Below, piece by piece: positions 31,615-45,569 of a stretch of 45,678 bases of DNA. Below the pieces are notes generated by a model that was given only the letters and a program-made list of their open reading frames with translations, searched no databases and was not told where the DNA came from. The stretch comes from Afipia sp. (GTDB lineage: Bacteria; Pseudomonadota; Alphaproteobacteria; Rhizobiales; Xanthobacteraceae), in assembly GCA_017474385.1 (NCBI GenBank), contig JAFVHU010000077.1:1-45678 (forward strand). Direction: 5' to 3'. The translations under genes and the position numbers were made by a program. The stretch's first letter is position 1. Every line of letters starts with the position of its first letter.

Positions 31615-32799
31615 TCAATGCAGGATTTCGAAAAGTCCAGCCGCGCCCATGCCGCCACCGATACACATGGTCACCACGCCGTACTTGGCCTTGCGGCGGC
31701 GGCCTTCGATCAGAACGTGACCGGCCAGACGCGCGCCAGTCATGCCGTAGGGGTGCCCCATCGAGATCGAGCCGCCGTTGACGTTGAGCTTCTCCGGATC
31801 GATCCCCAGCTTGTCGCGGCAATAGATGACCTGGACCGCATAGGCTTCGTTCAACTCCCAGAGATCGATGTCATCGATCTTGAGGCCGTGCCGCTTCAGC
31901 AGGCGCGGAATAGCGACGACGGGACCGACGCCCATCTCATCGGGCTCGACGCCAGCGGCGACAAAGCCACGGAAGATGCCGAGCGGCTTGAGGCCCTTTT
32001 TCGCGGCGAGCTTGTCGCTCATGATGACCGAGGCCGATGCACCATCCGACAACTGGCTGGCATTGCCGGCGCTGATGGTCTTGCCCTCGAACACCGGCTT
32101 GATGCTGGCGAGACCTTCGGCGGTGGTCTCCGGGCGCGGTCCCTCGTCCTTGGTCAGCGTGATGTCCTTGAACGAGACCTGCTTGGTTTCCTTGTCCACA
32201 ACCGCCATCTTTGTGGTGATCGGAACGATCTCGTCGTTGAACCGGCCGCCCTGGATGGCGGCACCGGTGCGGCGTTGACATTCGAGGCTGTATTCGTCCT
32301 GCTTGTCGCGCGGGATGTTGTAACGCGCGGCGACCACTTCCGCAGTCTCCAGCATCGACATGTACATGTCCGGCTTCATCGCCATCAACTCGTCGTCGAC
32401 CGCATGAAACTTATTCATGTGGTCGTTCTGAACAAGACTGATCGACTCGATGCCGCCGCCAATCGCAACGTCGACGCCGTCGAGCATGACCGAACGAGCC
32501 GCGACAGCGATAGCCTGCAAGCCAGAAGCGCATTGGCGGTCGATAGTGGTGCCTGCAACCGTGATCGGCAGTCCGGCGCGGATCGCGCCCTTGCGCGCGA
32601 CATTCATCACCATGGTGCCTTGCTGCATGGCGCAGCCCATCACCACGTCCTCGACCTCGCCCGGCTCGATCCCGGCGCGCTTCACCGCCTCGGCCATGAC
32701 GTGACCCGCCATCGTCGGGCCTTCAGTGTTGTTGAGCGCACCGCGATAGGCCTTGCCGATGCCGGTACGGGCTGTGGAAACAATAACTGCATCTGCCAT
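31615..32799 (-). CDS. Acetyl-CoA C-acyltransferase (PimB-like thiolase)
   Basis: 394 residues from ATG 32799 behind GGAGG. The nucleophile Cys90 lies in DRQCASGLQAI. The late motifs NVNGGSISMGHPYGMTGAR (His) and CIGGGMGAAGLF (second Cys) are complete. It cleaves 3-oxoacyl-CoA with CoA to release acetyl-CoA, the last step of beta-oxidation. It lies 137 bases downstream of the acyl-CoA dehydrogenase pair on the same strand, like pimB in the Rhodopseudomonas pimeloyl operon, but with a possible promoter of its own. A start at 32829 is less likely because the ribosome-binding site lies after it. Confidence 0.95.
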   Translation of the reverse strand: MADAVIVSTARTGIGKAYRGALNNTEGPTMAGHVMAEAVKRAGIEPGEVEDVVMGCAMQQGTMVMNVARKGAIRAGLPITVAGTTIDRQCASGLQAIAVAARSVMLDGVDVAIGGGIESISLVQNDHMNKFHAVDDELMAMKPDMYMSMLETAEVVAARYNIPRDKQDEYSLECQRRTGAAIQGGRFNDEIVPITTKMAVVDKETKQVSFKDITLTKDEGPRPETTAEGLASIKPVFEGKTISAGNASQLSDGASASVIMSDKLAAKKGLKPLGIFRGFVAAGVEPDEMGVGPVVAIPRLLKRHGLKIDDIDLWELNEAYAVQVIYCRDKLGIDPEKLNVNGGSISMGHPYGMTGARLAGHVLIEGRRRKAKYGVVTMCIGGGMGAAGLFEILH

Positions 32800-32856
32800 C
32801 CGAAGACCTCCGAGACGTGAGTCAGTCAATGAGACAGACTCTGGTTTGAATACGAC

Positions 32857-32869
32857 GTTATATGATAAC
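32857..32869. promoter_or_regulatory. Short palindrome ahead of the thiolase gene
   Basis: GTTATATGATAAC (GTTAT-ATG-ATAAC) lies 58 bases before the thiolase start in a locally AT-rich stretch, flanked by TTGAAT and ATTCAA arms (32845-32850 and 32874-32879). It is a candidate operator for separate thiolase control and does not match the GTTC-N7-GAAC sites of this island. Confidence 0.35.
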
Positions 32870-32936
32870 CATCATTCAATAAGAAAGCGCCTCACCGTTC
32901 AGCAAAGCTGTCATGCCAGGCCCCAGAATTCCGTGG

Positions 32937-34067
32937 TCAGGCCGCGCGTGCGTAGCGCAGCAAGTGGTACGTCGGATCGCCGAACTGGATGTTAATGGCC
33001 GCGATACGCTTGAAATAGTGACCGACGTTCAGTTCGTCGCTCATACCCATGCCGCCATGAAGCTGGATCGCCTGCTCGCCCACAAAGCGGGCAGCCTCGC
33101 CGATCTTCGACTTTGCGCCCGACGCAAGCTTCGATCCTTGCGGATCACGGTCCGCCACAGTTAGGTTCAAGTGCTGGGTGAGAGACGTCGCCTCTTCGAG
33201 CGCGATGAACATGTCCACCATCCGGTGCTGCAATACCTGGAATGTCCCGAGCGCCGCGCCGAACTGTTTGCGCGTCTTGCTGTATTCCAGCGTTGCCGTA
33301 TTAAGTTCAGCCATCGCTCCGGTTGCTTCAGCGCATAGAGCTGCAATGGCGCGATCCCTGCACGCTTCGAGAGCCGTAACGCCCTTGCCTTCGACCCCAA
33401 GCAGACGGCCTGCCGGGACGCTGACGTCCTTCAGCGTGATCTCGGCGGCACGCCGCCAGTCGATTGTCTTGAAGCTTTGCAGGTGAAGCCCTGCTGACTG
33501 GCGGTCCACGATGAAAAGGCTGACACCCGCATTGTCGCGCGGGCCACCCAGCGTCCGGGCCGACACGATCAGTTTGTCAGCCCACGGCGCTCCAATTACC
33601 GCAGCCTTCGCACCATTCAGGATGTAGTTGTCTCCGCTGCGCTTGGCGGTTGTCGCGACATTGTTAAGGTCATAGCGCGACCGGCCTTCGGTCCATGCCA
33701 GCGCCCAGACAGCCTCCCCCGCCATGATCGGCGGCAGGAATTCCTCACGCTGTGTGTCGGTGCCGACATCTTCGATCAAACCACCCGCCAGCACGACGGT
33801 CTCGAAGAAGGGCTCCACGACGAGATGGCGACCGAACTCCTGCATGATGATCATGGTCGCCAGCGGACCTCCTCCGAGTCCGCCAGAGGTCTCGGCAAAT
33901 GGCGCGGCCAGCAGGCCGAGCTCAGCGAAGGCGCTCCAGTGCTTTTTGCTCCAGCCCTCTTCCGTCGCGACGATCTTGCGGCGCGTGTCGAAATCGTACT
34001 GGTCGCGCAGCAGCCGCTGAATGCTGCTGCGCAGGAGTTCCTGTTCTTCCGTAAACTGAATATCCAC
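32937..34067 (-). CDS. Acyl-CoA dehydrogenase, PimD-like small subunit
   Basis: 376 residues. MDIQFTEEQELLRSSIQRLL, PFAETSGGLGGGPL, ATLEYSKTRKQFG and QLHGGMGMSDELNVGHYFKR are typical of the acyl-CoA dehydrogenase fold. The opening and the length resemble PimD, the small subunit of Rhodopseudomonas pimeloyl-CoA dehydrogenase. The canonical catalytic Glu position near the C-terminus reads QFGDP, so it lacks the MCAD-type base. With the large-subunit-like gene 21 bases upstream it likely forms an alpha2-beta2 FAD enzyme that adds a 2,3-double bond to an acyl-CoA. Confidence 0.92.
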   Translation of the reverse strand: MDIQFTEEQELLRSSIQRLLRDQYDFDTRRKIVATEEGWSKKHWSAFAELGLLAAPFAETSGGLGGGPLATMIIMQEFGRHLVVEPFFETVVLAGGLIEDVGTDTQREEFLPPIMAGEAVWALAWTEGRSRYDLNNVATTAKRSGDNYILNGAKAAVIGAPWADKLIVSARTLGGPRDNAGVSLFIVDRQSAGLHLQSFKTIDWRRAAEITLKDVSVPAGRLLGVEGKGVTALEACRDRAIAALCAEATGAMAELNTATLEYSKTRKQFGAALGTFQVLQHRMVDMFIALEEATSLTQHLNLTVADRDPQGSKLASGAKSKIGEAARFVGEQAIQLHGGMGMSDELNVGHYFKRIAAINIQFGDPTYHLLRYARAA

Positions 34068-34088
34068 CGGATGCCTCGTGCGACGCGA

Positions 34089-35270
34089 TTAGAGACCGAG
34101 TACCGCTTTCGCGATGATGTTGCGCTGGATCTCGTTCGATCCGCCGTAAATGCTGAGCTTCCGCGCGTTCAGATACTTCTCCGGCGCGGTATGACCGTCA
34201 TCCGGCCCCGGCATGAAGATATTGGCGCTGACCGGATGCTCGCGAAGCGCTAGACCGTAGTTGCCGATAGCCCGATGCGTCAGATCGGTGATGCGCTGGA
34301 AGATTTCCGTGCCCCTGATCTTGAACAGCGAGGCCGCCGGCCCCGGATTGATGCCGCGCGCCATCTGCGCAACGACGCGAAGCTCGGTGGCTTCCAGCGC
34401 CAGCACATCGAGTTCGACGCGAGCAATATCCTTGGTGAATTCACTGAAAACCGGATCGTCCTCGGCAATCTCAGCCTTCACGATCTTCTTCAGCTTGTTC
34501 AGATAGCGCGTCGAGCGCCCGATGCCCGCCATGCTGGTCCGCTCGTTGCCGAGCAGGAATTTCGCGTAGGTCCACCCCTTGTTCTCCTCGCCGATCAGGT
34601 TCTCGGCGGGAACGCGGACGTTCTCAAGGAAGACATCGTTGACTTCATGCGATCCGTCGATGGTGATGATCGGCCGAACCGTCACGCCGGGGCTCTTCAT
34701 GTCAATCAGCAGGAAGGAAATGCCGGATTGCGCCTTGGCTGTGGGGTCCGTGCGCACCAGACAGAATATCCAGTCGGCGTGCTGGGCCAACGTGGTCCAG
34801 GTCTTGTGGCCGTTGACGATGTAATGGTCGCCCTCGCGCACCGCCTTGGTGCGAACCGACGCAAGATCCGATCCCGAGCCCGGCTCCGAGTAACCCTGGC
34901 ACCACCAGTCTTCGCCCGACAGAATTCGCGGCAGAAACTTCGTTTTCTGCGCATCGTTGCCATACGTGTAGATAACTGGCCCCACCATCGTCACGCTGAA
35001 GGCCAGCGGCGGCAGTGTTCCAGCGCGCGTGGTTTCCTGCTCCCAGATGAAGCGCTGCGTGATCGACCAGCCGGGTCCGCCGTATTCCTTCGGCCACAGC
35101 GGGGCGATCCATCCCTTCTTATGCAGTATCTTGTGCCAGAGCATCGACTGCTCCTTGGTCAAATCCGTTTCCGGATTGGGCACGCGCATTTCCTGCGGAT
35201 AGTTCTCCGCGATAAAGGCCTTCACCTCATCCCGGAACGCCGCGTCTTCACTGGAAAGCTTCAGCTCCAT
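34089..35270 (-). CDS. Acyl-CoA dehydrogenase, PimC-like large subunit
   Basis: 393 residues. CQGYSEPGSGSDLASVRTKA is the FAD/substrate strand, NGHKTWTTLAQHADW follows, and YLNARKLSIYGGSNEIQRNIIA is the closing helix. The MCAD-type Glu is Gly376 here, but Glu243 in GNERTSMAG falls at the position used by isovaleryl-CoA dehydrogenase and is the likely base. The pattern resembles PimC and actinobacterial FadE26-type subunits that pair with a second subunit. It lies 12 bases after the SDR gene and 21 bases before the small-subunit gene, in a tight minus-strand operon. Confidence 0.93.
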   Translation of the reverse strand: MELKLSSEDAAFRDEVKAFIAENYPQEMRVPNPETDLTKEQSMLWHKILHKKGWIAPLWPKEYGGPGWSITQRFIWEQETTRAGTLPPLAFSVTMVGPVIYTYGNDAQKTKFLPRILSGEDWWCQGYSEPGSGSDLASVRTKAVREGDHYIVNGHKTWTTLAQHADWIFCLVRTDPTAKAQSGISFLLIDMKSPGVTVRPIITIDGSHEVNDVFLENVRVPAENLIGEENKGWTYAKFLLGNERTSMAGIGRSTRYLNKLKKIVKAEIAEDDPVFSEFTKDIARVELDVLALEATELRVVAQMARGINPGPAASLFKIRGTEIFQRITDLTHRAIGNYGLALREHPVSANIFMPGPDDGHTAPEKYLNARKLSIYGGSNEIQRNIIAKAVLGL

Positions 35271-35282
35271 CGGAAAGCTCCG

Positions 35283-36026
35283 TTACCACTTCTCGCCGAA
35301 CGGGCGGATTTCGGTCTCGAACGTCCAGGCATCACGCGGCTGCTGATAAAGCTGCCAATAGGTCTCCGCGACCGCAGCAGGACGCATCAGGCGGTTCGGA
35401 TCAAGATTTTCGATCGCTTCCTTGCCTTCGCGATTGGCGATCAGCTGCCGCACCCACTCGGTATCAACGCTGGAATCGATGATCAGATGTGCGACATGGA
35501 TGTTCTTCGGTCCCAGCTCGCGCGCAATCGCTTGCGCGACCGCGCGAAGGCCGAACTTGGCGCTGGCGAATGCCGCAAAACCCGAACCACCGCGCAAGCT
35601 TGCGGTTGCGCCGGTGAAGAAGATGGCGCCCTTGCCGCGCGGCAGCATCACGCGAGCCGCTTCACGTCCGGCGAGGAAGCCGGAATAGCAGGCCATTTCC
35701 CAAACCTTTCGGAAGACGCGCTCGGTGGTCTCGATGATCGGAAAATTGACGTTGGCGCCGATGTTGAAGATGCAGATTTCCAGTGGAGCATGTTTGTCGG
35801 CGTCGGAAATGAAGGAAATCATCTCCTCTTCCTTGCGCGCATCGAGCGAGCGGCCAAACACCGTGCCGCCTGCATCCCTGATCTCCTTCATCAGAGGCTC
35901 GAGCTTCTCGCCCTGACGCCGTCCCACGAACACCGTGAAACCTTCGGCTGCGAATTTCTTGGCGATCTCGCCGCCGATGAAATCACCGGCGCCGATCACG
36001 GCCACGGTCGCGTTTCGCTTCTGCAA
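35283..36026 (-). CDS. Short-chain dehydrogenase-like protein with Phe at the catalytic Tyr position (copy 1)
   Basis: 247 residues with a Rossmann N-terminus (VAVIGAGDFIGGEIAKKF). The NNAG-type strand reads FNIGANVNF. The YxxxK active site reads FASAK (Phe153, Lys157), so the proton-donating tyrosine is missing. The same change occurs in the paralogue at 37886-38629, so it is a family trait and not an error. I infer that it binds NAD(P)(H) but may do chemistry other than ordinary alcohol oxidation. It lies between the CoA ligase and the dehydrogenase pair in one operon, so its substrate is probably an acyl-CoA of that pathway. Confidence 0.88.
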   Translation of the reverse strand: MQKRNATVAVIGAGDFIGGEIAKKFAAEGFTVFVGRRQGEKLEPLMKEIRDAGGTVFGRSLDARKEEEMISFISDADKHAPLEICIFNIGANVNFPIIETTERVFRKVWEMACYSGFLAGREAARVMLPRGKGAIFFTGATASLRGGSGFAAFASAKFGLRAVAQAIARELGPKNIHVAHLIIDSSVDTEWVRQLIANREGKEAIENLDPNRLMRPAAVAETYWQLYQQPRDAWTFETEIRPFGEKW

Positions 36027-36093: not shown

Positions 36094-37650
36094 TCACGCT
36101 TCCCGAAGAGACTCAGCAAGCTTGTGTTTGAGTATCTTTCCGGTCGATGTCGCCGGCAGCGCATCCAGCACAATGATCTGTGATGGACGCTTGTAGGATG
36201 TGAGTTGCTTGCTCGCGAAGGCCATCAACTCGGAAGAGGTCACGTTCGACCCCTTCAGCAACTGAACGAACGCCACCACTTCTTCGTTACCGTCGGCCGG
36301 ACGCCCGACCACCGCGGACTGCACGACGGCATCGTGCGAGCTGAGCACGGCTTCCACTTCGGCGGGATAGACATTGAATCCCGAACGAATGATCATTTCC
36401 TTGGTGCGACCAACGATGAAGAAACATCCACCCTCGGAGCGAGCCAGATCGCCGGTATTGAACCAGCCCTCGCTGTCGATCGCCTTGGCCGTGATATCCG
36501 GCGCGCGATAGTAACCGAGCATGACATTACGGCCGCGGACATGCAGCTCACCGACTGATCCGTCGTTGATGATCGAACCATCACGCCCGACAATGCGCGC
36601 TTCGATACCCGGCAACAGCGTACCAACCGCCTCATCCGCGCGGGGTGAATCGAGCCGCACACCGGAAATACCCGGCGCGCACTCGGTGATGCCGTAACCG
36701 TTCAGGAGCGAGAGGCCCAATTCCTGCTCGGTCCGGCGCTTGAGGTCGAGGTCAAGCGGCGCGCCTGCAACGGTGATCATGCGCAGCGATCCCGTATTGA
36801 GCTTCTCGATGCCTTGCAGCGTCTTGTATTCGAGCAGGCGCTGGAATGTCGCCGGAACGCCGTTGAGGATAGTCACGCCCTCCTCGGCAATAGCCTTCGC
36901 CAGCACTGCCGGGTCATACTTGCTGACCAACTGAACTGTACCGCCGGCCATCAGCGTCTGGAGCAGAAGCGAGACGCCGACGATATGGGAAATCGGCAAT
37001 ACGACATAAACCCTGTCGCGATCGTCCATCTTCCGGAACAATGCGATTGCCCTGCCGCTGAACAGCATGTTCTCATGAGTCAGCATGACGCCTTTTGGCG
37101 TGCCGGTAGTTCCCGATGTATAAATCAGTACCGCCACCTGCTTTGCCGGATCGGCGTGCACCGGCTCGGCAGTCGCCGTCTCGTTCAATTGGCCGACGCC
37201 GATATTCTCCAGCGGACCGACCTTGCTCACGGTCGCACCGACCCGCGTCGCATGGCTGGCCGCTTCAGGCGAAACATCCACGGTGAAAAACATTCGCCGT
37301 GCACCGCTGTGATCGCGAATCTGATCAAGCTCTCGCGGTGACAATCGCGGGTTGGCGACGATGGCCCAGGCATCGATCCGGCTGGCCGCCAGCAGCAACA
37401 CAGCCAGCGCGATGCAATTCTCGCTGACGATCATGACCCGATCGCCGGGCCGCACGCCAAGTTCGCGCAAAACGGCCGCAACCTGCCCGACCGATTCCGA
37501 CAGCTTGCGGTACGACCAGGTGACAAAGCCTTCCACCAGCGCCGGGTGATCCGGCGTCGCGGCCACCGCGCGATCCATGGTCTGGTGCAGGCGGTCAGGT
37601 ATGTCCTTAATGATGTCAGCGACGTCAATCGCCTGAGCTGCGCTCGCCAC
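36094..37650 (-). CDS. Acyl/aryl-CoA ligase (AMP-forming), first copy
   Basis: 518 residues from GTG 37650 with GGGAGG just upstream. ANL-superfamily motifs are complete: YTSGTTGTPKGVMLTH (P-loop-like A3), NGYGITECAPG (A5), GWFNTGDLARSE (A7), IRSGFNVYPAEVE (A8) and the terminal STGKILKHKL with the catalytic lysine. It activates a carboxylic acid to its CoA thioester with ATP; the length fits long-chain or aromatic acid ligases. It is the first gene of the five-gene minus-strand unit (ligase, SDR, two dehydrogenase subunits, thiolase) and is preceded by the operator-bearing promoter at 37706-37733. Confidence 0.93.
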   Translation of the reverse strand: MASAAQAIDVADIIKDIPDRLHQTMDRAVAATPDHPALVEGFVTWSYRKLSESVGQVAAVLRELGVRPGDRVMIVSENCIALAVLLLAASRIDAWAIVANPRLSPRELDQIRDHSGARRMFFTVDVSPEAASHATRVGATVSKVGPLENIGVGQLNETATAEPVHADPAKQVAVLIYTSGTTGTPKGVMLTHENMLFSGRAIALFRKMDDRDRVYVVLPISHIVGVSLLLQTLMAGGTVQLVSKYDPAVLAKAIAEEGVTILNGVPATFQRLLEYKTLQGIEKLNTGSLRMITVAGAPLDLDLKRRTEQELGLSLLNGYGITECAPGISGVRLDSPRADEAVGTLLPGIEARIVGRDGSIINDGSVGELHVRGRNVMLGYYRAPDITAKAIDSEGWFNTGDLARSEGGCFFIVGRTKEMIIRSGFNVYPAEVEAVLSSHDAVVQSAVVGRPADGNEEVVAFVQLLKGSNVTSSELMAFASKQLTSYKRPSQIIVLDALPATSTGKILKHKLAESLREA

Positions 37651-37705
37651 TTCAACCTCCCGGTATTGTTCGGCCGCTTCCAGGGCGGCCTTAACGTGAA
37701 CGCAA

Positions 37706-37733
37706 ATTAGCGTTCTTTTTTAGAACTAGTCAA
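37706..37733 (-). promoter_or_regulatory. Promoter with embedded GTTC-N7-GAAC operator, site A
   Basis: Read on the minus strand: TTGACT (-35, 37733-37728), then 16 bases that contain GTTC-TAAAAAA-GAAC (37712-37726), then GCTAAT (-10, 37711-37706). The operator fills the spacer, an ideal place for repression. The 22-base run from the -35 through the operator is identical to site B at 45141-45162. It would drive the CoA ligase operon (start 56 bases on) and could also affect the divergent SDR-GST pair. Confidence 0.75.
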
Positions 37734-37885
37734 TCTGAATTGATGCAGCGCGAAAAACCATGGTTCCGGACGCGACCTCCCATAGGCCACAGCTTATGAT
37801 AAATTGCGACGATAATCGTTTACAAGCGTTGGCATGGCCGCTATGAATGAAAGTACCAAATAAGAACTGTACGGGAGAGAAACAC

Positions 37886-38629
37886 TTGGCTCAGGGCAAC
37901 GGCGTGGTTTTGCTGGTCGGCGCGGGTGACGCTATCGGTGCGGCGGTCGCACGGCGATTCGCCAAGGGCGGATACAAGGTATGCGTGGCGCGCCGCGAAG
38001 CCGCAAAATCTCAAGCACTTGTCGATGAGTTGAAGGCCGAAGGATGCGAAGTCCACGCCATCAGCGTAGACGCCCGTCAGGAGGCCGACGTGCAGGCCAT
38101 GTTTGCGCGCATCGAAAAGGAGATCGGGCCGATCGAGGTTTGCCTCTATAACGCCGGCTCCAACGTCAACAAGCCGCTTCTGGAGACCACCGAAAAGCTG
38201 TTCTTCAAGGCATGGGAACTCGCCTGCTATGGCGGCTTTCTAGTCGGCCGCGAGGCGGCCAAATACATGTTGCTGCGCGGCCGCGGCACCATTCTGTTCA
38301 CCGGCGCAACGGCGAGTGTGCGCGGCGGAAAGGGTTTCGCTGCCTTTTCATCAGCCAAATTTGGCCTCCGTGCCGTGGCTCAGGCGATGGCGCGCGAACT
38401 TGGACCCAAGAACATCCATGTTGTCCATCTGCTGATCGACGCTGCCGTGGACAGCGAGGCTATCCATCTGCGCATGAAAGCCGCGAAGGGCATTGAAGCA
38501 AGCGACATCCCCGCTGACAGCCTGACCAAAACAGACTCCATTGCCGACGCATACTGGTTCACACACCATCAGAAACGCGACGGCTGGACCCACGAACTCG
38601 ACCTGCGTCCCTCTGTGGAGACATGGTGA
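37886..38629 (+). CDS. Short-chain dehydrogenase-like protein with Phe at the catalytic Tyr position (copy 2)
   Basis: 247 residues from TTG 37886, which has GGGAGAG at 37873-37879; the ATG at 37847 lacks a ribosome-binding site. It is a close paralogue of copy 1 with the same ending (VETW versus GEKW). The nucleotide site VLLVGAGDAIGAAVARRF is intact, and the YxxxK site reads FSSAK (Phe154, Lys158). Shared blocks such as FTGATAS-RGG and MARELGPKNIHV show duplication inside the island. It forms a two-gene unit with the GST-like gene one base downstream, divergent from the ligase operon. Confidence 0.87.
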   Translation: MAQGNGVVLLVGAGDAIGAAVARRFAKGGYKVCVARREAAKSQALVDELKAEGCEVHAISVDARQEADVQAMFARIEKEIGPIEVCLYNAGSNVNKPLLETTEKLFFKAWELACYGGFLVGREAAKYMLLRGRGTILFTGATASVRGGKGFAAFSSAKFGLRAVAQAMARELGPKNIHVVHLLIDAAVDSEAIHLRMKAAKGIEASDIPADSLTKTDSIADAYWFTHHQKRDGWTHELDLRPSVETW

Positions 38630-38630
38630 C

Positions 38631-39308
38631 ATGGCAACCGCTCCGAACCTCACCCTGTGGGGCGTCGGAACCAGCCGTACCGTTCGGCCGCACTGGGCGC
38701 TGGCAGAACTGGGGCTGAAGTACGAGACCTACGCCATCGGCCCCCGCACCGGCGAAACCAAGACGACGGAATACACAAAACTCAATCCGCGTCAGAAAGT
38801 CCCCCTGCTCCAGGACGGCGATTTCTCGATCGGCGAAAGCGCTGCCATCGTCGCTTATCTTTCAAAAACCTATGGCAGTCCGGATAAGGCGCTGATCCCC
38901 GACGACAAGCAGGCCTACGCGAAGTGGCTGGAATGGTGCTTCTTCATCGTCACCGAACTCGATTCCACAAGCCTGTATGTGATGCGCCGCCACAGCGCTA
39001 ATGCGCTGGGGCCGATTTACGGAGTCGCACCCGATGTCGTGGCCAAGGCCGGAGAGTACTTTCGCGAACAATTGCGCCACGTCGAAGTTGCTCTCAGCGA
39101 CGGACGGACGTATTTAATGGGTGAACAATTCACCAGCGCTGACATTCTGCTGACGACCTGCCTCGAATGGGCGATCGCTTACGGCGTCGGCATCTGCGAC
39201 AATGCCCATCCCTACCTCGAGCGCATTCAGAAGCGTCCGGGCTACCAGCGCGGCATCGCCGCGAATGTTCCGCCCGCTCCAGGCGAACCGGTCCGACGGC
39301 CGGCCTGA
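38631..39308 (+). CDS. Glutathione S-transferase-like protein
   Basis: 225 residues from ATG 38631. The N-terminal thioredoxin domain (LWGVGTSRTVRPHWALAELGL) offers Ser/Thr near residue 14 as the glutathione-activating residue; NPRQKVPLLQDGDFSIGESAAIVAYL holds the cis-Pro and the glutathione-binding ES pair. The all-helical C-terminal domain ends with YLERIQKRPGYQRG. Glutathione enzymes in catabolic islands often isomerise or cleave intermediates (maleylacetoacetate isomerase, beta-etherases). Its coupling to an SDR and the DsbA-fold isomerase gene nearby suggest a glutathione-dependent step here, which is inference. Confidence 0.9.
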   Translation: MATAPNLTLWGVGTSRTVRPHWALAELGLKYETYAIGPRTGETKTTEYTKLNPRQKVPLLQDGDFSIGESAAIVAYLSKTYGSPDKALIPDDKQAYAKWLEWCFFIVTELDSTSLYVMRRHSANALGPIYGVAPDVVAKAGEYFREQLRHVEVALSDGRTYLMGEQFTSADILLTTCLEWAIAYGVGICDNAHPYLERIQKRPGYQRGIAANVPPAPGEPVRRPA

Positions 39309-39324
39309 TTTCAAGTGCAAATGC

Positions 39325-39355
39325 AAATAAGGCCGACGTTACGTCGGCCTTATTT
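39325..39355. terminator. Bidirectional terminator between GST-like and CoA-transferase genes
   Basis: AAATAAGGCCGACGT (39325-39339) and ACGTCGGCCTTATTT (39341-39355) are perfect complements around one base, folding to a 12-bp stem with a small loop. The A- and T-rich ends let it work on both strands for the two convergent units. Confidence 0.88.
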
Positions 39356-39358
39356 CGT

Positions 39359-40558
39359 TCAACCCACCGCCCTGACGGACTTGCCTGCGATCATCTTGTC
39401 GATGGCGTCATCGGCATAGCCGAGTTCGCGCAGCACAGCGCGGGAATGCTCGCCGACCCGCGGCGCAGGACCGCCGATCGCGGCCTTGTTGACCTCGAAG
39501 ATCGCCGCAGGCTTCGGCTGCCGCACCCGGCCCACCGTCGGCTGCTCGAATTCCTCGATCAGGCCACGTGCCACCACCTGGTCGTTGTTGATGATCTCGC
39601 CGCGGCGAAGAATCGGCGAACACGGCACATCGGCCGCATCCAGGCGCTCCAGCCATTCGGCGGTGGTGCGCTGGCTGATATATTCCTGCATCTTGTTGAT
39701 GCGCGCGGTGGCGTTGATGAAGCGCGCGCTCGGCGTCGCGAACCGCTCATCCTTCGCAAGCTCCGGATCGCCCGAGGCCTTGCAGAAGCCCTGCCATTCG
39801 GAATCCGAGATCGTGCCGGCGGTGATGTAGCCGTCCAGCGTCTGGAACACGAGATCGGGCCGGTCGTTCGGGTCCGCGGCCGCCGCTTCGGCACCAATCA
39901 CGGTGTACTGCATCATGCCTTCCGGCCACAGATACGAGATCATGGTGTCCAGCATCGCCACCTGGATGTGGTCGCCCTTGCCGGTCTTCTCGCGCGCGTA
40001 GAGCGCCGAGGACACTGCCTGCGCGGTGAACACCGAGGTCGTCTTGTCGCAGACGATGGTGCGGATCATCTGCGGCCGGTTGGTCACCGGCTGCGACTGG
40101 ATGTCGGCGAAGCCCGACAGGCCCTGGATGATCGGATCGTAGACCCGCTTCTTGACGTAGGGCCCAGAGTCACCCACCCCGCTGATCGAGACATAGATCA
40201 GGCGCGGATACTTCTCGCGCAATTCCTTCTGCCCGAGGCCGAGGCGCTCCATCGTGCCGGGGCGGAAGTTCTGCACCAGCACGTCGGCCTGCGATGCCAG
40301 CTTGGCCAGCACCTCGCGACCTGTGTCGCTCTTGATGTCGATCGACAGCGAGCGCTTGCCGCGGTTGCACGACACGAACAGCGCGGAGAATTCGCCGGCT
40401 GCATCGATCAGGGTGCGGCTCCGCCGCGTGCCGTCGCCGCCGATCGGCTCGATCTTCAGCACGTCCGCGCCCTGATCCGCCAGGAACATCGTCGCATACG
40501 GACCCGATACCACCGCCGTCAGATCAAGAACGCGAACACCACTCAAAGGACCAGGCAT
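39359..40558 (-). CDS. CaiB/BaiF-family (class III) CoA transferase
   Basis: 399 residues. VRVLDLTAVVSGPYATMFLADQGADVLKIEP opens the class III fold. The catalytic Asp lies in QVAMLDTMISYLW and the late RGEIINNDQVVARG is typical. The family moves CoA between carboxylates through an Asp-bound anhydride and is often used for racemic, aromatic or carnitine-type acids. It lies 84 bases behind the isomerase gene on the same strand, so both probably leave promoter C. With two ligases also present, CoA activation in this island has three independent routes. Confidence 0.93.
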   Translation of the reverse strand: MPGPLSGVRVLDLTAVVSGPYATMFLADQGADVLKIEPIGGDGTRRSRTLIDAAGEFSALFVSCNRGKRSLSIDIKSDTGREVLAKLASQADVLVQNFRPGTMERLGLGQKELREKYPRLIYVSISGVGDSGPYVKKRVYDPIIQGLSGFADIQSQPVTNRPQMIRTIVCDKTTSVFTAQAVSSALYAREKTGKGDHIQVAMLDTMISYLWPEGMMQYTVIGAEAAAADPNDRPDLVFQTLDGYITAGTISDSEWQGFCKASGDPELAKDERFATPSARFINATARINKMQEYISQRTTAEWLERLDAADVPCSPILRRGEIINNDQVVARGLIEEFEQPTVGRVRQPKPAAIFEVNKAAIGGPAPRVGEHSRAVLRELGYADDAIDKMIAGKSVRAVG

Positions 40559-40642
40559 CTGTTTCTTCCCTGATTTCGTGGGCGGGACTGCCTGACGGCC
40601 TTACCGCTGGATCCGAACAGTTCTTGAGACGTTGAGCCGCAA

Positions 40643-41281
40643 TCAGGCGGATTTGGCTTTCGCCGCGCCGAGCTGCTCGACAATGGACTCTTCGACGTCA
40701 CGAAGCTGGTCCTTGCCGAAGAACATTTCCTTGCCAACGAAGAAGGTCGGCGAGCCGAACGCGCCGCGGTTTACCGCATCGGTTGTGACCTCGATCAGCC
40801 TCTTCTTCACATCGTCCTGCTGCGCACGCGCATAGAGCCGGTCGATATCGATATCGGAAGACAGAAATGCGTTCCGGAACACTTCAGGATCGTCCATTTT
40901 CTTCGGCTCTTCCCACATATGATGGTAGGCCGCGCGGAAATACGGCTCGAACATGTTTTCGAACTGAGCTGCGGTACCGACGCGCATCAGCGTCAATGTG
41001 TTGACCGGAAAAAACGGGTTTTGCTTGAACTTCGTGATGCCGTACTTTTTGAGGAAACGTTGCGTTTCCAACGCTTGGTATTCGGGCTTGTTCTTGATGC
41101 CGCGCAACGAGTCGGACGGCGACATGTTGTTGGTCGCCTTGTAGATGCCCCCGAGAAGCACCGGGACGTACTCAAACTTGACGCCGGTGCGCTTTTCGAT
41201 GCCCGGAAGCGCATATTCCGCCAGATAGGCATTGGGGCTACCGAAATCGAACTGAAACTCGACCTTCAAGGGACTGGCCAC
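40643..41281 (-). CDS. DsbA-fold isomerase (2-hydroxychromene-2-carboxylate isomerase family)
   Basis: 212 residues. The thioredoxin-like start FQFDFGSPNAYLAEYAL holds the Ser (in FGSP) that replaces the Cys pair and activates glutathione in HCCA isomerase and kappa-class GST. The helical insert (NNMSPSDSLRGIKNKPEY) and the AFGSPTFFVGKEMFFGKDQL end fit the family. Known members isomerise a naphthalene breakdown product using glutathione; many homologues sit in acyl-CoA gene clusters with unknown substrates. It is the first gene after the operator promoter at 41362-41390. Confidence 0.9.
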   Translation of the reverse strand: MASPLKVEFQFDFGSPNAYLAEYALPGIEKRTGVKFEYVPVLLGGIYKATNNMSPSDSLRGIKNKPEYQALETQRFLKKYGITKFKQNPFFPVNTLTLMRVGTAAQFENMFEPYFRAAYHHMWEEPKKMDDPEVFRNAFLSSDIDIDRLYARAQQDDVKKRLIEVTTDAVNRGAFGSPTFFVGKEMFFGKDQLRDVEESIVEQLGAAKAKSA

Positions 41282-41361
41282 CGCGCTTCTCCTCCTGTGT
41301 CATACGTCGTCTGACGTGCGCTTATTGATTGCATCACCGCTCTTGCCCGGAGCGCGGACCA

Positions 41362-41390
41362 TTCATAGAGTTCTAAAATTGAACTGTCAA
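41362..41390 (-). promoter_or_regulatory. Promoter with embedded GTTC-N7-GAAC operator, site C
   Basis: On the minus strand: TTGACA (consensus -35, 41390-41385), a 17-base spacer beginning with GTTC-AATTTTA-GAAC (41384-41370), then TATGAA (-10, 41367-41362). The half-sites match those of A and B although the spacer bases differ, which points to protein recognition of GTTC/GAAC rather than to shared ancestry of the whole block. It drives the isomerase and CoA-transferase genes, 80 bases before the isomerase start. Confidence 0.72.
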
Positions 41391-41525
41391 TTCGATCCCG
41401 CCTGCCGTGCAGGTTTTACACCTGTGCCAGCCCAAAATAGGACTTTTGTCCAACTTAGTGCCTATTTAGAATGGTGCGTATGCAGGCTATAAATGATCCG
41501 CCTTGCGCACGAACCGGAGACGACT

Positions 41526-42050
41526 ATGAGATGGGATGAACTTGAAGAAGAGCCGTGTTCCATGGCCCGCACCATCGGCGTGATCGGCGACCGGTGGAGC
41601 CTGCTGATCCTGCGGGAATGCTTCCTGCGGACCCGCCGGTTTGAAGCTTTCCAGTCCACCCTCGGAATCACCCGGCATCTCCTGGCCGAACGTCTCAAGA
41701 AGCTGGTCCGTCTCGGCGTCCTGCGGCGGGTCGCTTATCAGGAGTCGCCGAAGCGGCACGAATACATCCTGACCCAGAAGGGCCTCGACCTCTATCCGAT
41801 CATGATGGCGATCGTTCATTGGGGCGATATCCATATGGTCGACGAACGCGGCCGCCCGCTGCTTCACGAGCATCAGAAGTGCGGCCACCAGTTCAACCCG
41901 GTCATGATCTGCTCGGAGTGCAACGAGCCGTTGCTGGCGAAGGAAGTTCACGTTCACCCCGGCCCGGGCGCACGCCCGAAGGCTATTCCGCCAAAGCCGG
42001 CGAAGGTGGCCAAGGCAAAAGCTTCACGAGCAAAAGCTCGCGCGGCCTAA
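41526..42050 (+). CDS. HxlR-family winged-helix regulator with C-terminal Cys/His cluster
   Basis: 174 residues from ATG 41526 (CGGAGA at 41515-41520). The HxlR core is clear: CSMARTIGVIGDRWSLLILRE at the N-terminus, RFEAFQSTLGITRHLLAERLKKL as the recognition region, and a wing YQESPKRHEYILTQKG. After residue 115 come CGHQFNPVMICSECNEPL, a possible zinc knuckle (Cys, His, two Cys), and a Lys/Ala-rich tail. It is the only transcription factor in the island and is divergent from the isomerase unit, making it the first candidate to bind the GTTC-N7-GAAC sites. That assignment is inference. Confidence 0.92.
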   Translation: MRWDELEEEPCSMARTIGVIGDRWSLLILRECFLRTRRFEAFQSTLGITRHLLAERLKKLVRLGVLRRVAYQESPKRHEYILTQKGLDLYPIMMAIVHWGDIHMVDERGRPLLHEHQKCGHQFNPVMICSECNEPLLAKEVHVHPGPGARPKAIPPKPAKVAKAKASRAKARAA

Positions 42051-42082
42051 ACCGCCGCTTCGCAATCTGAGACGGTCATATT

Positions 42083-42109
42083 GAAAGGCGCCAGATTTCT
42101 GGCGCCTTT
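42083..42109. terminator. Bidirectional terminator between hxlR and second ligase gene
   Basis: AAAGGCGCCAGA (42084-42095), loop TT, TCTGGCGCCTTT (42098-42109), flanked by GA and TC. Symmetric enough to serve both convergent genes. Confidence 0.85.
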
Positions 42110-42112
42110 TCA

Positions 42113-43744
42113 TTACGCGCTCTTTTGTGACGTGTAGTGGCCGGCAAAGCGGCGGCGCAATTCCATCTTCTGCACCTTGCCGGTCGCGCCATAGGTCAGC
42201 GCATCGACGAAAATCACGTCGTCCGGCATCCACCACTTGGCGATCTTCCCTTCCAGAAATGCGACGATCGACTTCGCGGTCGCAGGCTCCGAGGCAGACG
42301 GCACCACGATGAGCAGCGGACGCTCTTCCCACCGCGGGTGGGGAATGCCGATGACAGCCGCCTCGGCCACGCCGGGACATCCGATCGCCAGATTCTCGAC
42401 ATCGATCGAACTGATCCACTCGCCGCCGGATTTGATGACATCCTTGGCGCGATCGGTGAGCTGAATGTAGTTGTCGTCATCCATCACGGCGAGGTCGCCG
42501 GTATTAAACCATCCGTCTTCCAGCGATGGCTTTTCTTCGCGGTAGTAACCGCTGAGAACCCAGGGACCGCGGACCATCAGGCGGCCGCTGGACTTGCCGT
42601 CATGCGGCATCTCGTTTCCGTCTTCGTCCACGATCTTCACATCGACGCCGTAAATGGGTTGCCCTTGCGTGGTCTTGCGGCGAAGCCGTTCCTCCGGGGA
42701 GGCCTTTGCAGTCTTGCGCGACGGCTGAGTGGACGTACCGCACGGGCTGGTTTCGGTCATCCCCCACACGTGATTCACGGAGACTCCAAGTCTTTCGAAG
42801 CCCGCAATCATGCTCGGCGCGGGAGCGGAGCCTGCGACAACGAGCCGTTGCATCGTCCCAGCGCCGCGGCCCTGCTCCTCGAAGTGCTGGAGCAGCTTCG
42901 AGTAAAGCGTCGGAACACCGGCGGTGACAGTAACGCCCTCCGTCTCGATCAGCTCGGCGATACTCGCCGCATCCATTTTGGGTCCCGGCAGAACGAGCTT
43001 TGCCCCGACCATCGGGGCGGCATGAGTAAACCCCCAGGCTCCGTTGGCGTGAAACATCGGCGTCATTGGCAGGACCGTATCCACCGCCGCCAATCCCATC
43101 GAATAGGCCCCGGTAATCGACAGGCAATGCAGCACGTCCGAGCGATGGGAATAAAGGACACCCTTTGGATTGCCCGTTGTGCCCGACGTATAGAACAGCG
43201 ACGAAGCAGACAACTCGTCGAATACCGGCCAGACGAAGCCTTCATCGCCGGTGGCAATGAAATCCTCGTAGCACTGAAGATTCGGAATACGCGTGGCGGC
43301 GGGCATCGACGCGCGGTCGGCCATCAGAACGAAGAGACCCACGGTCGGGAGATCGGGCGCCAACTTCTCCACCAGCGGCAAGAAAGAACTCTCGAAGAAC
43401 AGGACTTTGTCTTCGGCATGATTTGCGATGTAGACGAGTTGTGCCGGGATCAATCGCGGGTTGATCGCGTGCCAGATGGCGCCCATGCCCGTCACGCCGT
43501 GTTCGATTTCAAAATGGCGATAGTTGTTCCAGGCCAGTGTTGCCACACGGTCACTGTGCTTGATGCCGTGGCGCTGCAAGGCACTTGCCAGTTGACGCGC
43601 CCGCCGTGCCGCATCGCGATACGTGTAGCGATGGATCGGTCCTTCGACCGTGCGCGACACGATTTCCGTGCTGGAGTGAAACCGGTCCGCATGTTGCAAC
43701 AGCGACGACAGCAGCAACGGCTGATTTTGCATTAAGCCCTTCAC
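42113..43744 (-). CDS. Fatty-acid/acyl-CoA ligase (AMP-forming), second copy
   Basis: 543 residues from GTG 43744 with AAGGAG at the right distance; the product begins MKGLMQNQPLLLSSLLQHA. Motifs are complete: FYTSGTTGNPKGVLYSH, WGMTETSPCG, GWFNTGDLAVMDDDNYIQLTDRAKDVIKSGGEWISS and the ending ATGKVQKMELRRRF with the catalytic lysine. This pattern is the medium/long-chain FadD subtype. It is only distantly similar to the ligase at 36094-37650, so the island has two non-redundant CoA ligases. It follows the binding-protein gene on the same strand, separated by a terminator-like hairpin, so its level may be lower than that of the binding protein. Confidence 0.93.
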   Translation of the reverse strand: MKGLMQNQPLLLSSLLQHADRFHSSTEIVSRTVEGPIHRYTYRDAARRARQLASALQRHGIKHSDRVATLAWNNYRHFEIEHGVTGMGAIWHAINPRLIPAQLVYIANHAEDKVLFFESSFLPLVEKLAPDLPTVGLFVLMADRASMPAATRIPNLQCYEDFIATGDEGFVWPVFDELSASSLFYTSGTTGNPKGVLYSHRSDVLHCLSITGAYSMGLAAVDTVLPMTPMFHANGAWGFTHAAPMVGAKLVLPGPKMDAASIAELIETEGVTVTAGVPTLYSKLLQHFEEQGRGAGTMQRLVVAGSAPAPSMIAGFERLGVSVNHVWGMTETSPCGTSTQPSRKTAKASPEERLRRKTTQGQPIYGVDVKIVDEDGNEMPHDGKSSGRLMVRGPWVLSGYYREEKPSLEDGWFNTGDLAVMDDDNYIQLTDRAKDVIKSGGEWISSIDVENLAIGCPGVAEAAVIGIPHPRWEERPLLIVVPSASEPATAKSIVAFLEGKIAKWWMPDDVIFVDALTYGATGKVQKMELRRRFAGHYTSQKSA

Positions 43745-43780
43745 GGCGCCTCTCCTTGAATTCCACGCAACGGGGGTCAG

Positions 43781-43816
43781 CGAAAAGGCCGGCATCTCAG
43801 AAAGAGTGCCGGCCTT
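43781..43816 (-). terminator. Terminator/attenuator between the binding-protein and ligase genes
   Basis: On the minus strand AAGGCCGGCA (43816-43807) and TGCCGGCCTT (43794-43785) form a 10-bp stem, followed by TT and CGC. The T-run is short (T4), so partial readthrough into the ligase is plausible. Confidence 0.7.
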
Positions 43817-43833
43817 GATTTCATCTTCGCAGG

Positions 43834-45033
43834 CTATTCAGACTTCGCATCGAGCACGTCGCTGAACTGATCCCAGTTCTCGCCCGTCCAGCGCTGCAGA
43901 CGCATCTGGGTGAAGTCCTGATTCACGCTCTCGCTCGTGTTGACCAGAACGCCAGGCAACACAGACGGAAGAGCAATGTCCTTCAGATTTTTGGCCTGCT
44001 TAAGAATATTTTCGCGGGAAAGATCATTACCGCACTGCTTGATGATCTGCTCAAGGATCATCCCCTGGGTGTAGCCAAAAATATAGTTCGTGTCGGAGAT
44101 GTCGACGCCGGGCATGTATTTATCAATGAACGCGCGATAGTCCTTCATGCCTTTGTCGTTGTCCCACTTCGAATCCGTTGGATCCTTGGTCATCGTTCCG
44201 GCGATCACGCCGATCGACTTGTCCAGGCCCGCTGGCTTGAGCGTGGCACCGACCGAGCTCGACGGATAGTTCAGCATCAGGACTGGCTTCCATCCGATCT
44301 CGGACGCCTTTCGGATGGCTTGGGCAGCGAACTTCGGCGTTCCCGCAACAAGCAGGGCATCCGCGCCTGAACTCTTCAGATTTACGATTTGGGAATCGAT
44401 TGTCGGATCGGCGATCTCATAGGCAGCGGTTACAACGCGTTTGTCGAATTCGTCTTTCATCAACGCCTTGAACGCGTTGACGTAGTCTTTTCCGAGATCA
44501 TCGTTCTGATAGAGGATTGCGTATTTTTTACCCGGCAGGGTTTTGTTCAAATACTTGGCGTAGATTTTTCCTTCGGTATCGAAGCTGACAAGGCTCGTCG
44601 TGGTGATCGGGAAGTCCTTGACGTTGGTGAACTTGTTCGAACCGCTGACAATACCAAGCGCCGGGACTTTCTTTCCCGTCAGATATTTTGCCGTTGCCGT
44701 ATTGCCGGGTGTGCCAAGCTGGCCAAACATGAAGGCGACTTCGTCACTCTCAACCAGCTTGCGAACATGCTCGACCGCCTTCGGAGGGCTGTAGGCGTCG
44801 TCATAGGCGATGTAATTGATTTTCCGGCCGTTGATGCCACCGCGGTCGTTGACCGACTGCACGTAGGCAAGCACACCCCTGCCGACGAGACCAATGGACG
44901 ATGCCGGTCCGCTGAACGGGAAAACGCCGCCGACCTTGATTTCGGTCGCCGTGACACCGGGCATTTCGTTGGCGGAAGCAGACGCGGATAGCGCGAGCAC
45001 CAAAGCGGACGCGAGTTTCAATCCCTTGATCAT
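43834..45033 (-). CDS. ABC transporter periplasmic binding protein (branched-chain amino acid/aromatic acid type)
   Basis: 399 residues from ATG 45033 behind GGGAGGAG. A Sec signal (MIKGLKLASALVLALSASASA) is followed by GVTATEIKVGGVFPFSGPASSIGLVGRGVLAYV and NDRGGINGRKINYIAYDDAYSPPKAVEHVRKLVE, the type I periplasmic-binding (LivK/HAAT) pattern. Homologues of this group in Bradyrhizobiaceae often bind aromatic or dicarboxylic acids, so the ligand is probably the substrate of this island, not necessarily an amino acid. No permease or ATPase is in the window. Promoter B lies 100 bases upstream. Confidence 0.93.
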   Translation of the reverse strand: MIKGLKLASALVLALSASASANEMPGVTATEIKVGGVFPFSGPASSIGLVGRGVLAYVQSVNDRGGINGRKINYIAYDDAYSPPKAVEHVRKLVESDEVAFMFGQLGTPGNTATAKYLTGKKVPALGIVSGSNKFTNVKDFPITTTSLVSFDTEGKIYAKYLNKTLPGKKYAILYQNDDLGKDYVNAFKALMKDEFDKRVVTAAYEIADPTIDSQIVNLKSSGADALLVAGTPKFAAQAIRKASEIGWKPVLMLNYPSSSVGATLKPAGLDKSIGVIAGTMTKDPTDSKWDNDKGMKDYRAFIDKYMPGVDISDTNYIFGYTQGMILEQIIKQCGNDLSRENILKQAKNLKDIALPSVLPGVLVNTSESVNQDFTQMRLQRWTGENWDQFSDVLDAKSE

Positions 45034-45134
45034 CGTTTCTCCTCCCTTGTGAAAAATCACTGCGTCCTACCGCTCAAACGGGGGCAGGCTCGTTTCAGTT
45101 GCAGCCGTTTTCGGCCAACGTTGTTGGTTTAGAC

Positions 45135-45162
45135 GTTACAGTTCTTTTTTAGAACTAGTCAA
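45135..45162 (-). promoter_or_regulatory. Promoter with embedded GTTC-N7-GAAC operator, site B
   Basis: On the minus strand: TTGACT (-35, 45162-45157), a 16-base spacer with GTTC-TAAAAAA-GAAC (45155-45141), then TGTAAC (-10, 45140-45135). The -35 plus operator is base-for-base identical to site A, 7.4 kb away, over 22 positions. It would drive the binding-protein gene with a leader of about 95 bases. Confidence 0.75.
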
Positions 45163-45569
45163 GCAATCGAGCAATCCGCGCTGCGCGCCGTACATTCTCG
45201 TCAGAAAAGCTATAAATTGAGCAAATATATTCACTTAGGCATAAGTGGACCGTTATGCCTGCGCTTCCACGATATCTAATTAATTCTATTTTTGAACTAG
45301 AATATTCTCTTGTACACGCCGGCGTGTACCCGCGAGCAAGCCCCGTCGGAGCTTGCGTAAGGCTTCTCATGTAATCCTAAACGGACAATACACGAGGCCA
45401 GCTAACCCTCCTTGCGATGCCACGATCGATCAACACTCGCGACACCCAATCGAGCAAAATTTGAGCAACCTTCCTTGATTTATCTAGGTAAAATTGGGTT
45501 CGTTCTGCCAATCCTCGCCAGATCATGTCGTGCGAAGAGTGAGCTGCTGCCGGTTTAGTGGACGGCTAG
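45163..45569. other. Gene-free, palindrome-rich region at the island edge
   Basis: No gene is supported here. Three dyads stand out. AGGCATAA (45237-45244) pairs with TTATGCCT (45253-45260). ATTC-N7-GAAC at 45283-45297 resembles the island operators, followed by TAG as at sites A and B but without a -35. GTACACGCCGGCGTGTAC (45312-45329) is a perfect 18-base palindrome. The stretch from 45210 to 45310 is AT-rich. An insertion-sequence end probably lies near 45540 (TGAGCTGCTGCC). Promoters of a gene lost to the insertion may have been here. Confidence 0.5.

Follow-up and report, generated by a model that had tools for sequence, protein, structure and literature searches.

The 45,678-nucleotide stretch of Afipia sp. 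DNA analysed here (the window; coordinates refer to its whole length) carries the gene for an HxlR/DUF24 regulator among genes of carboxylic-acid catabolism. We regard it as probable (roughly 0.87, judging from sequence comparison) that this regulator is a repressor that controls carboxylic-acid uptake and beta-oxidation genes via AGTTC-N7-GAACT dyads. The dyad, its location, its tie to HxlR and its remote copies were computed directly. The operator word is a 17-bp dyad, AGTTC-(AT-rich N7)-GAACT, lying between TTGAC(A/T) and a weak -10 hexamer, and in the window it occurs at three sites (A, C and B, with sequences read on the minus strand) that share the layout TTGAC(A/T), then AGTTC-N7-GAAC(T/G), then a weak TA-rich hexamer:

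37704-37733, minus strand: site A, promoter-like element and putative operator, TTGACT.AGTTCTAAAAAAGAACGC.TAATTT (-35 TTGACT 37728-37733, operator 37711-37727, -10-like TAATTT 37704-37709), serving the ligase, short-chain dehydrogenase/reductase (SDR), dehydrogenase and thiolase genes
41362-41390, minus strand: site C, promoter-like element and putative operator, TTGACA.GTTCAATTTTAGAACTC.TATGAA (-35 TTGACA 41385-41390, operator 41369-41385, -10-like TATGAA 41362-41367), serving the genes for the DsbA-like isomerase and the CoA-transferase and pointing away from hxlR
45133-45162, minus strand: site B, promoter-like element and putative operator, TTGACT.AGTTCTAAAAAAGAACTG.TAACGT (-35 TTGACT 45157-45162, operator 45140-45156, -10-like TAACGT 45133-45138), serving the solute-binding protein and CoA-ligase genes
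41526-42050, plus strand: hxlR, encoding an HxlR/DUF24 winged-helix regulator of 174 amino acids (PF01638, 78.8 bits against a cut-off of 20.8) with a C-terminal HxxC-x9-CxxC tail

A sequence-only reading of the window had named A, B and C as minus-strand promoters with GTTC-N7-GAAC in the spacer, and all three were recovered, the longest stretch common to A and B being exactly 22 bp and the spacer of C differing. The promoter-like layout it described held, but its placing of the -10 hexamer at 16 or 17 bases did not, since placement by conservation gives 17 bp at C and 18 bp at A and B. As the -10 hexamers are weak and a consensus sigma-70 scan of the window (at least 9 of 12 positions) called none of the three sites, the promoter reading rests on conservation. 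The three-site inventory, correct for A, B and C, proved incomplete, as it had missed the following dyads:

37852-37868, plus strand: site A', a second dyad AGTACCAAATAAGAACT with two mismatches, directly 5' of the divergent SDR and glutathione S-transferase (GST) genes
45282-45298, minus strand: an extra dyad AGTTCAAAAATAGAATT with one mismatch, upstream of B
41457-41473, plus strand: a degenerate dyad AGTGCCTATTTAGAATG with three arm mismatches in the hxlR promoter, overlapping its TAGAAT block; a putative weak autoregulatory site

Counterparts of A' lie at the same position in four relatives (loci L115, L117, L153 and L154). GTTC-N7-GAAC occurs four times in the window against 0.84 expected, a count reached in 1 of 100 shuffles; the fourth copy, at 34599, lies within a coding region. 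In the window's own genome it is the form with an AT spacer that is enriched: AGTTC-W7-GAACT was found at 14 places with at most two mismatches (8 for the reversed pattern), at seven with at most one (2 reversed) and at three exactly (0 reversed).

Loci of relatives were fetched by similarity to the window HxlR and to a 73%-identical paralogue, and the best 80 of 95 confirmed loci, titled as Afipia, Bradyrhizobium, one Rhodopseudomonas and others, provided 1.53 Mb of sequence. Exact AGTTC/GAACT arms at a 7-bp gap occurred 118 times in these loci, against 0-5 times at gaps of 3-6 and 8-11 bp, and six other arm pairs gave 0-7 exact copies at every gap tried; with up to one mismatch the 7-bp gap yielded 241 copies against 7-85 for the other gaps. 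Relative to the HxlR start, the recurring dyads sit near -160 bp (C), between roughly +3.5 and +4.2 kb (B) and near -3.8 kb (A). At the C position, where 79 distinct contexts were compared over 97 bp, the main conserved block is gaTTGACAGTTCnaTTTTAGAACTnTA; the 79 sequences converge on the consensus TTGACAGTTCnaTTTTAGAACTnTA, little else agrees within 40 bp on each side, and TTGACA (at most one mismatch) overlaps the dyad by one base in 77 of them. Because these sequences agree on dyad and TTGACA and on little else nearby, we read the element as a promoter plus operator. An abutting TTGACA, again with at most one mismatch, accompanies 42 of 61 dyads at the A distance and 39 of 55 at the B distance; this comparison took dyads with at least five A/T in the spacer and at most one mismatch and sorted them by distance only (23 sites fell outside the three groups), so that A' and B' copies as well as a few further dyads are counted in the A and B groups. 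The earlier suggestion that the sites are under selection is thus supported by comparison for A, B and C, which appear to lie inside promoter-like elements.

HxlR had also been put forward as the binder of these sites, a proposal that the comparative data strengthen. In 79 of the 80 loci a dyad with at most one arm mismatch lies within 400 bp upstream of HxlR, and in the remaining locus one with two mismatches. The gene opposite HxlR varies (DsbA-like isomerase in 62 loci, the first SDR in eight, binding protein in six, ligase in one, unassigned in three), and since the dyad stays upstream of HxlR whatever gene lies opposite, HxlR is its constant partner. The genome scan for co-occurrence that the sequence-only reading had proposed gave the same picture: among 198 genomes of the family, exact AGTTC-W7-GAACT was present in 21, all of them among the 29 HxlR-positive genomes (E at most 1e-50), and in none of the 169 without HxlR of this kind, with the reversed control present in one genome. 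By genus, exact dyads were found in 5 of 47, all among the eight HxlR-positive genera (hypergeometric 4e-22 by genome, 4e-5 by genus). Each of the eight HxlR-positive genomes without an exact W7 copy has a copy with at most two arm mismatches upstream of HxlR. Within the window's own genus, 19 of 29 genomes encode HxlR and hold 2-9 dyads at up to one mismatch (reversed control 0-3), and 6 of the 10 HxlR-less members hold none.

More distant regulators were examined through the upstream regions of 18 chosen HxlR genes, and 10 of the 12 at 36-50% identity had nothing better than three mismatches. Across 297 genomes of the order, HxlR at E up to 1e-45 was found in 12, of which only G255 and G357 (G numbers denote other genomes, L numbers loci of relatives), both of one genus, lie outside the family, at 54-59% identity. 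Their HxlR genes are preceded by two dyads 28 bp apart, with AGTTT-N7-AAACT in three of the four copies and AGTTT-N7-GAACT in the fourth, and the presumed recognition helix (assigned by us) reads ITRPVLAQRL instead of the ITRHLLAERL of the window; the genes opposite (thioesterase-like and MATE-like, by eye) are unrelated to the window neighbours. No further AGTTY-N7-RAACT was found in the 19-20 kb read around these two HxlR genes, and a scan of both genomes for AGTTT-W7-AAACT was empty, which is not evidence, as in the copies there the spacer includes C or G or an arm differs. This joint difference in operator and presumed recognition helix, next to unrelated neighbours, is the strongest single point for HxlR as the likely binder, and altogether the sequence comparisons support HxlR as by far the best candidate.

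In the window's own genome the dyad extends to loci designated C57, C73 and C117 and to contig C72, so that "local", the word first used for this regulon, does not apply: the remote lone binding-protein gene C117, the pim-side transporter and the locus of an HxlR paralogue all carry the same dyad. It lies upstream of this paralogue, which is 73% identical to the window HxlR, and at C73 it precedes both the HxlR paralogue and its divergent binding protein. Upstream of the C117 gene, the dyad stands 61-77 bp before the ATG in all 12 full-length orthologues (at least 75% identity), exact in 11 and with one mismatch in one; a 13th, apparently broken copy in G188 carries it as well. At E 1e-100 this gene was found in none of nine HxlR-less genus members, and among HxlR-less genomes only in G209. 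The ATP-binding cassette (ABC) transporter beside the pim locus has one or two dyads in the window's own genome and in G188, G197, G065 and G168. The own pim locus, C57, includes this transporter and three binding proteins, and its PimA (1064.8 bits, cut-off 705.6) and PimC (717.7 bits, cut-off 623.85) both exceed the thresholds of the NCBIfam equivalogs. In the Bradyrhizobium-like genome G026 the dyad precedes homologues of the CoA-transferase, the second SDR and the GST (L110), on a contig other than that of its HxlR. The members of the regulon, spread over several loci, would together serve to take up a carboxylic acid, activate it with CoA and break it down by beta-oxidation. In single genomes, some dyads also precede genes of other kinds, among them one for a TctC-like receptor and one adjoining hemE-like DNA (by eye).

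Several observations weigh against a single HxlR-operated regulon of this kind. Four of the ten HxlR-less genus members hold copies at up to one mismatch (G198, G154 and G208 one each, G209 three; reversed controls 0-1 in these genomes), G209 being a 910-contig assembly that includes island genes. Co-occurrence at the level of genomes follows in part from regulator and site being neighbours, and the genomes are related; the covariation of helix and operator is one event, because G255 and G357 belong to one genus. Two of the distant regulators do have closer matches upstream, L133 (43% identity) one with a single mismatch and L136 (41%) one with two mismatches and a GC spacer. The dyad is common to two HxlR paralogues, either of which may act at a given site. 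The C117-type binding-protein promoters have no clear TTGACA, and promoter architecture is therefore not uniform, and one dyad of the own pim locus sits within the neighbouring IclR gene. The sites of C72 lack a counterpart upstream of the relatives' genes examined, with no dyad at the three cytochrome P450 relatives fetched.

On contig C72 itself (L002, 3120-6333) dyads lie at 3120 and 3195, separated from a P450 cluster by IS3-like and IS110-like genes (by eye), insertions that may have cut a promoter from the P450 operon. Another dyad of C72 precedes a gene resembling a pyrroloquinoline quinone (PQQ)-dependent alcohol dehydrogenase (by eye). Of 13 relatives of this dehydrogenase, 11 were read with 1.5 kb upstream, and only L196 gave a two-mismatch match, in which the arm letters are not kept. 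P450 and PQQ alcohol dehydrogenase were accordingly rejected as conserved targets, the dyads not being kept in the relatives examined, and the C72 sites may be accessory.

The hxlR promoter itself was aligned from the 62 of the 80 loci with a DsbA-like gene opposite, together with the window. Its second conserved block is TAGAAT; 17 bp upstream stands TTTTGT in the window and TTGTTT in many of the Bradyrhizobium copies, and in at least 62 of 81 sequences the spacer is crossed by AGTRCC-N4-TAGAATG. A degenerate dyad with up to three arm mismatches was found in this stretch in 69 of 81 sequences, whereas a coding control gave 17 of 81 and a control region farther upstream 19 of 81; this suggests weak autoregulation of hxlR.

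From these data we infer binding, dimerisation, repression and a releasing signal as follows. HxlR would bind AGTTC-N7-GAACT as a dimer and, with the dyad filling the -35/-10 spacer at A, B and C, the bound protein would block RNA polymerase; repression is the simplest reading because the operator lies between -35 and -10. The same action is envisaged at A' and at the remote genes (the pim-side transporter, the lone solute-binding-protein gene and the paralogue's locus), and HxlR would probably also dampen its own promoter through the degenerate copy. A substrate-dependent signal would then release HxlR, so that uptake, CoA activation and beta-oxidation are switched on together.

As to the signal, one option is thiol, electrophile or metal chemistry at conserved Cys and His residues, another a pathway metabolite. 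Cys11, Cys32, His116, Cys119, Cys129 and Cys132 are invariant in all 87 aligned sequences, and because Cys11, Cys32 and the tail are invariant, thiol or metal sensing seems at least as likely as the release by an acyl-CoA ester or free acid, itself possible, that had been suggested. The HxxC-x9-CxxC tail (residues 116-132), partly retained in relatives of 50-59% identity, resembles a zinc-ribbon or thiol module and might serve as a zinc site or a thiol switch. It is conceivable, if rather doubtful, that a metal- or thiol-reactive HxxC...CxxC module drives a many-locus catabolic regulon, with uptake and beta-oxidation switched by redox or electrophile chemistry rather than by ligand binding, and that AGTYY-N7-RRACT dyads amount to a small recognition code that can be read from one HxlR paralogue to the next; the trigger would then perhaps be a reactive intermediate of the pathway on which the co-regulated GST and DsbA-like isomerase act.

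The window HxlR is 93-97% identical to Afipia records and matches solved structures of its family (PA1607, 6e-21; Bacillus HxlR, 5e-10; YodB, 1.5e-8); its AlphaFold model was discarded for low quality (mean predicted local distance difference test score 46.6). The genome has 14 PF01638 matches, one of them short. A perfect AT-centred 5-7-5 dyad was found upstream of 3 of the 11 other own-genome HxlR genes examined, a count that is a hint only, because other gap lengths give equally many palindromes. Upstream of another HxlR gene (L014, own contig C160, 13632-13648), AGTCCAAATTATGGACT lies 68 bp away and has the same geometry with a related half-site. Six relatives (L127, L128, L129, L134, L135 and L136) are proteins of 322-398 amino acids with two HxlR-like halves per chain, 39-44% identical to the window HxlR, and in all six the AGTTC dyad at up to one mismatch was absent within 350 bp upstream.

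The direction of control is where another reading deserves most attention. HxlR might bind the dyad as an activator or dual regulator, like Bacillus HxlR on hxlAB; the Bacillus protein is described as an activator that binds DNA more strongly when formaldehyde acts on its Cys11 (PMC7835342), Cys11 is invariant here too, and the weak -10 hexamers of A, B and C would suit such a role. Yet the operator occupies the -35/-10 spacer of 17-18 bp, from which a bound dimer is expected to exclude polymerase, and the Cys11-x-Lys13 pair of the Bacillus type was not found, position 13 being Met or Val in the two own-genome paralogues in place of the Lys that Bacillus HxlR uses, so that we consider activation unlikely. 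Somewhat less probable still is that the dyad is bound by a regulator encoded elsewhere with the same distribution, for example the IclR type of the pim locus, and that HxlR is a mere neighbour or target. Dyads lie beside and within that IclR gene, and co-occurrence alone cannot tell apart genes of equal distribution; on the other side, HxlR remains beside the dyad while the opposite gene varies, and the HxlR of another family has a sister dyad, an altered helix and unrelated neighbours.

Two further explanations do without such a catabolic regulator. On the plus strand, positions 37698-37721 form a hairpin and T6 tail that overlap site A (stem 37698-37715 in the terminator scan, followed by the T-run), and this element could double as a terminator. 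Together with the 22 bp common to A and B, it might indicate duplicated or terminator-like DNA unconnected with any regulator. Site C, however, has no T-run and other spacer letters, no such hairpin is listed at B, and in the 79 contexts the flanks diverge while dyad and TTGACA are kept; this conservation rules the explanation out for practical purposes, and we give it very little probability. The dyads might also be variant LexA (SOS) boxes, as the Caulobacter consensus GTTCN7GTTC has the same half-site and gap, arranged as a direct repeat (PMC12700426). A, B and C are inverted repeats with catabolic neighbours, and the direct repeat GTTC-N7-GTTC was not found at them. The exact dyad is missing from all the family genomes that lack this HxlR, although LexA is, to our knowledge, near-universal. 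The inverted orientation and a distribution that tracks HxlR led us to reject LexA boxes, which we find scarcely credible.

Repression by HxlR, which we prefer, would thus govern an island in which, as the sequence-only reading had it, each site heads a different catabolic unit; the gene families behind A, B and C bear this out:

31615-36026, minus strand: SDR, two acyl-CoA dehydrogenases (PimC/PimD-like) and thiolase, in the same direction as the ligase
36094-37650, minus strand: AMP-dependent acyl-CoA ligase (PF00501), first gene behind site A
37886-39308, plus strand: divergent SDR and GST (families by domain search), the SDR start being probably TTG at 37886, judging from our reading and from relatives
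39359-41281, minus strand: family III CoA-transferase (PF02515) and DsbA-like isomerase (PF01323), behind site C
42113-43732, minus strand: second AMP-dependent acyl-CoA ligase, behind the binding protein
43834-45030, minus strand: periplasmic solute-binding protein (Peripla_BP_6, PF13458, 174.1 bits), behind site B

The two acyl-CoA dehydrogenases fall under the NCBIfam equivalog cut-offs (476.5 against 623.85 bits for PimC; 373.7 against 652.7 bits for PimD), and the DsbA-like isomerase is one that we take to be kappa-GST-like. The contig end (45580-45678, minus strand) resembles, by eye, the C-terminal part of an IS3-type transposase gene.

The kind of switch, HxlR/DUF24, is already known; here it comes with a well-supported putative operator and an unusual tail. 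In the literature searched, by title and abstract start and with many subscription papers outside its scope, nothing was found that describes the dyad or the regulon, and the same kind of search for HxlR with Bradyrhizobium revealed no such regulon. The analysis names a putative operator, a candidate regulator and the likely targets of a catabolic regulon in Afipia and Bradyrhizobium, genera rich in HxlR-type genes. A defined dyad eases gel-shift, footprint and knock-out work, and the half-site change paired with a helix change is a starting point for reading HxlR operators from sequence.

Among known systems, the pimFABCDE genes and ABC transporter of Rhodopseudomonas palustris, where two of three neighbouring binding proteins are described as binding fatty and dicarboxylic acids (PMC3223731), are matched by the own C57 locus with PimA, PimC, a transporter and three binding proteins. 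The own dyads, however, precede the transporter and not pimF, and the part of PMC3223731 consulted mentions no HxlR control for R. palustris. The alphaproteobacterial LexA box GTTC-N7-GTTC shares half-site and gap with our dyad and differs in being a direct repeat that serves SOS genes (PMC12700426). CouR resembles the proposed regulator as a repressor of CoA-dependent catabolic genes and is reported to be released by p-coumaroyl-CoA (PMC4737184); it is described as MarR-type, and for the window HxlR a CoA ester is only a candidate effector. The closest likeness is to the MarR-related HxlR/DUF24 proteins themselves (Bacillus HxlR, YodB, CatR and HypR; Staphylococcus QsrR), with which the window protein shares the PF01638 winged helix and a conserved N-terminal Cys in helix 1, and of which YodB and CatR are described as repressors (PMC6798810, PMC10458429, PMC7835342). 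These relatives, so far as those sources describe them, answer to quinones, other electrophiles, oxidants or formaldehyde, whereas the window HxlR would target genes of uptake and beta-oxidation spread over several loci. Its HxxC...CxxC tail, too, would have little or no place in the Bacillus chains of solved structure, which are 107-131 amino acids long. The inverted repeat expected of a dimeric HxlR/DUF24 operator is present and conserved here, and the window HxlR is predicted to bind it.

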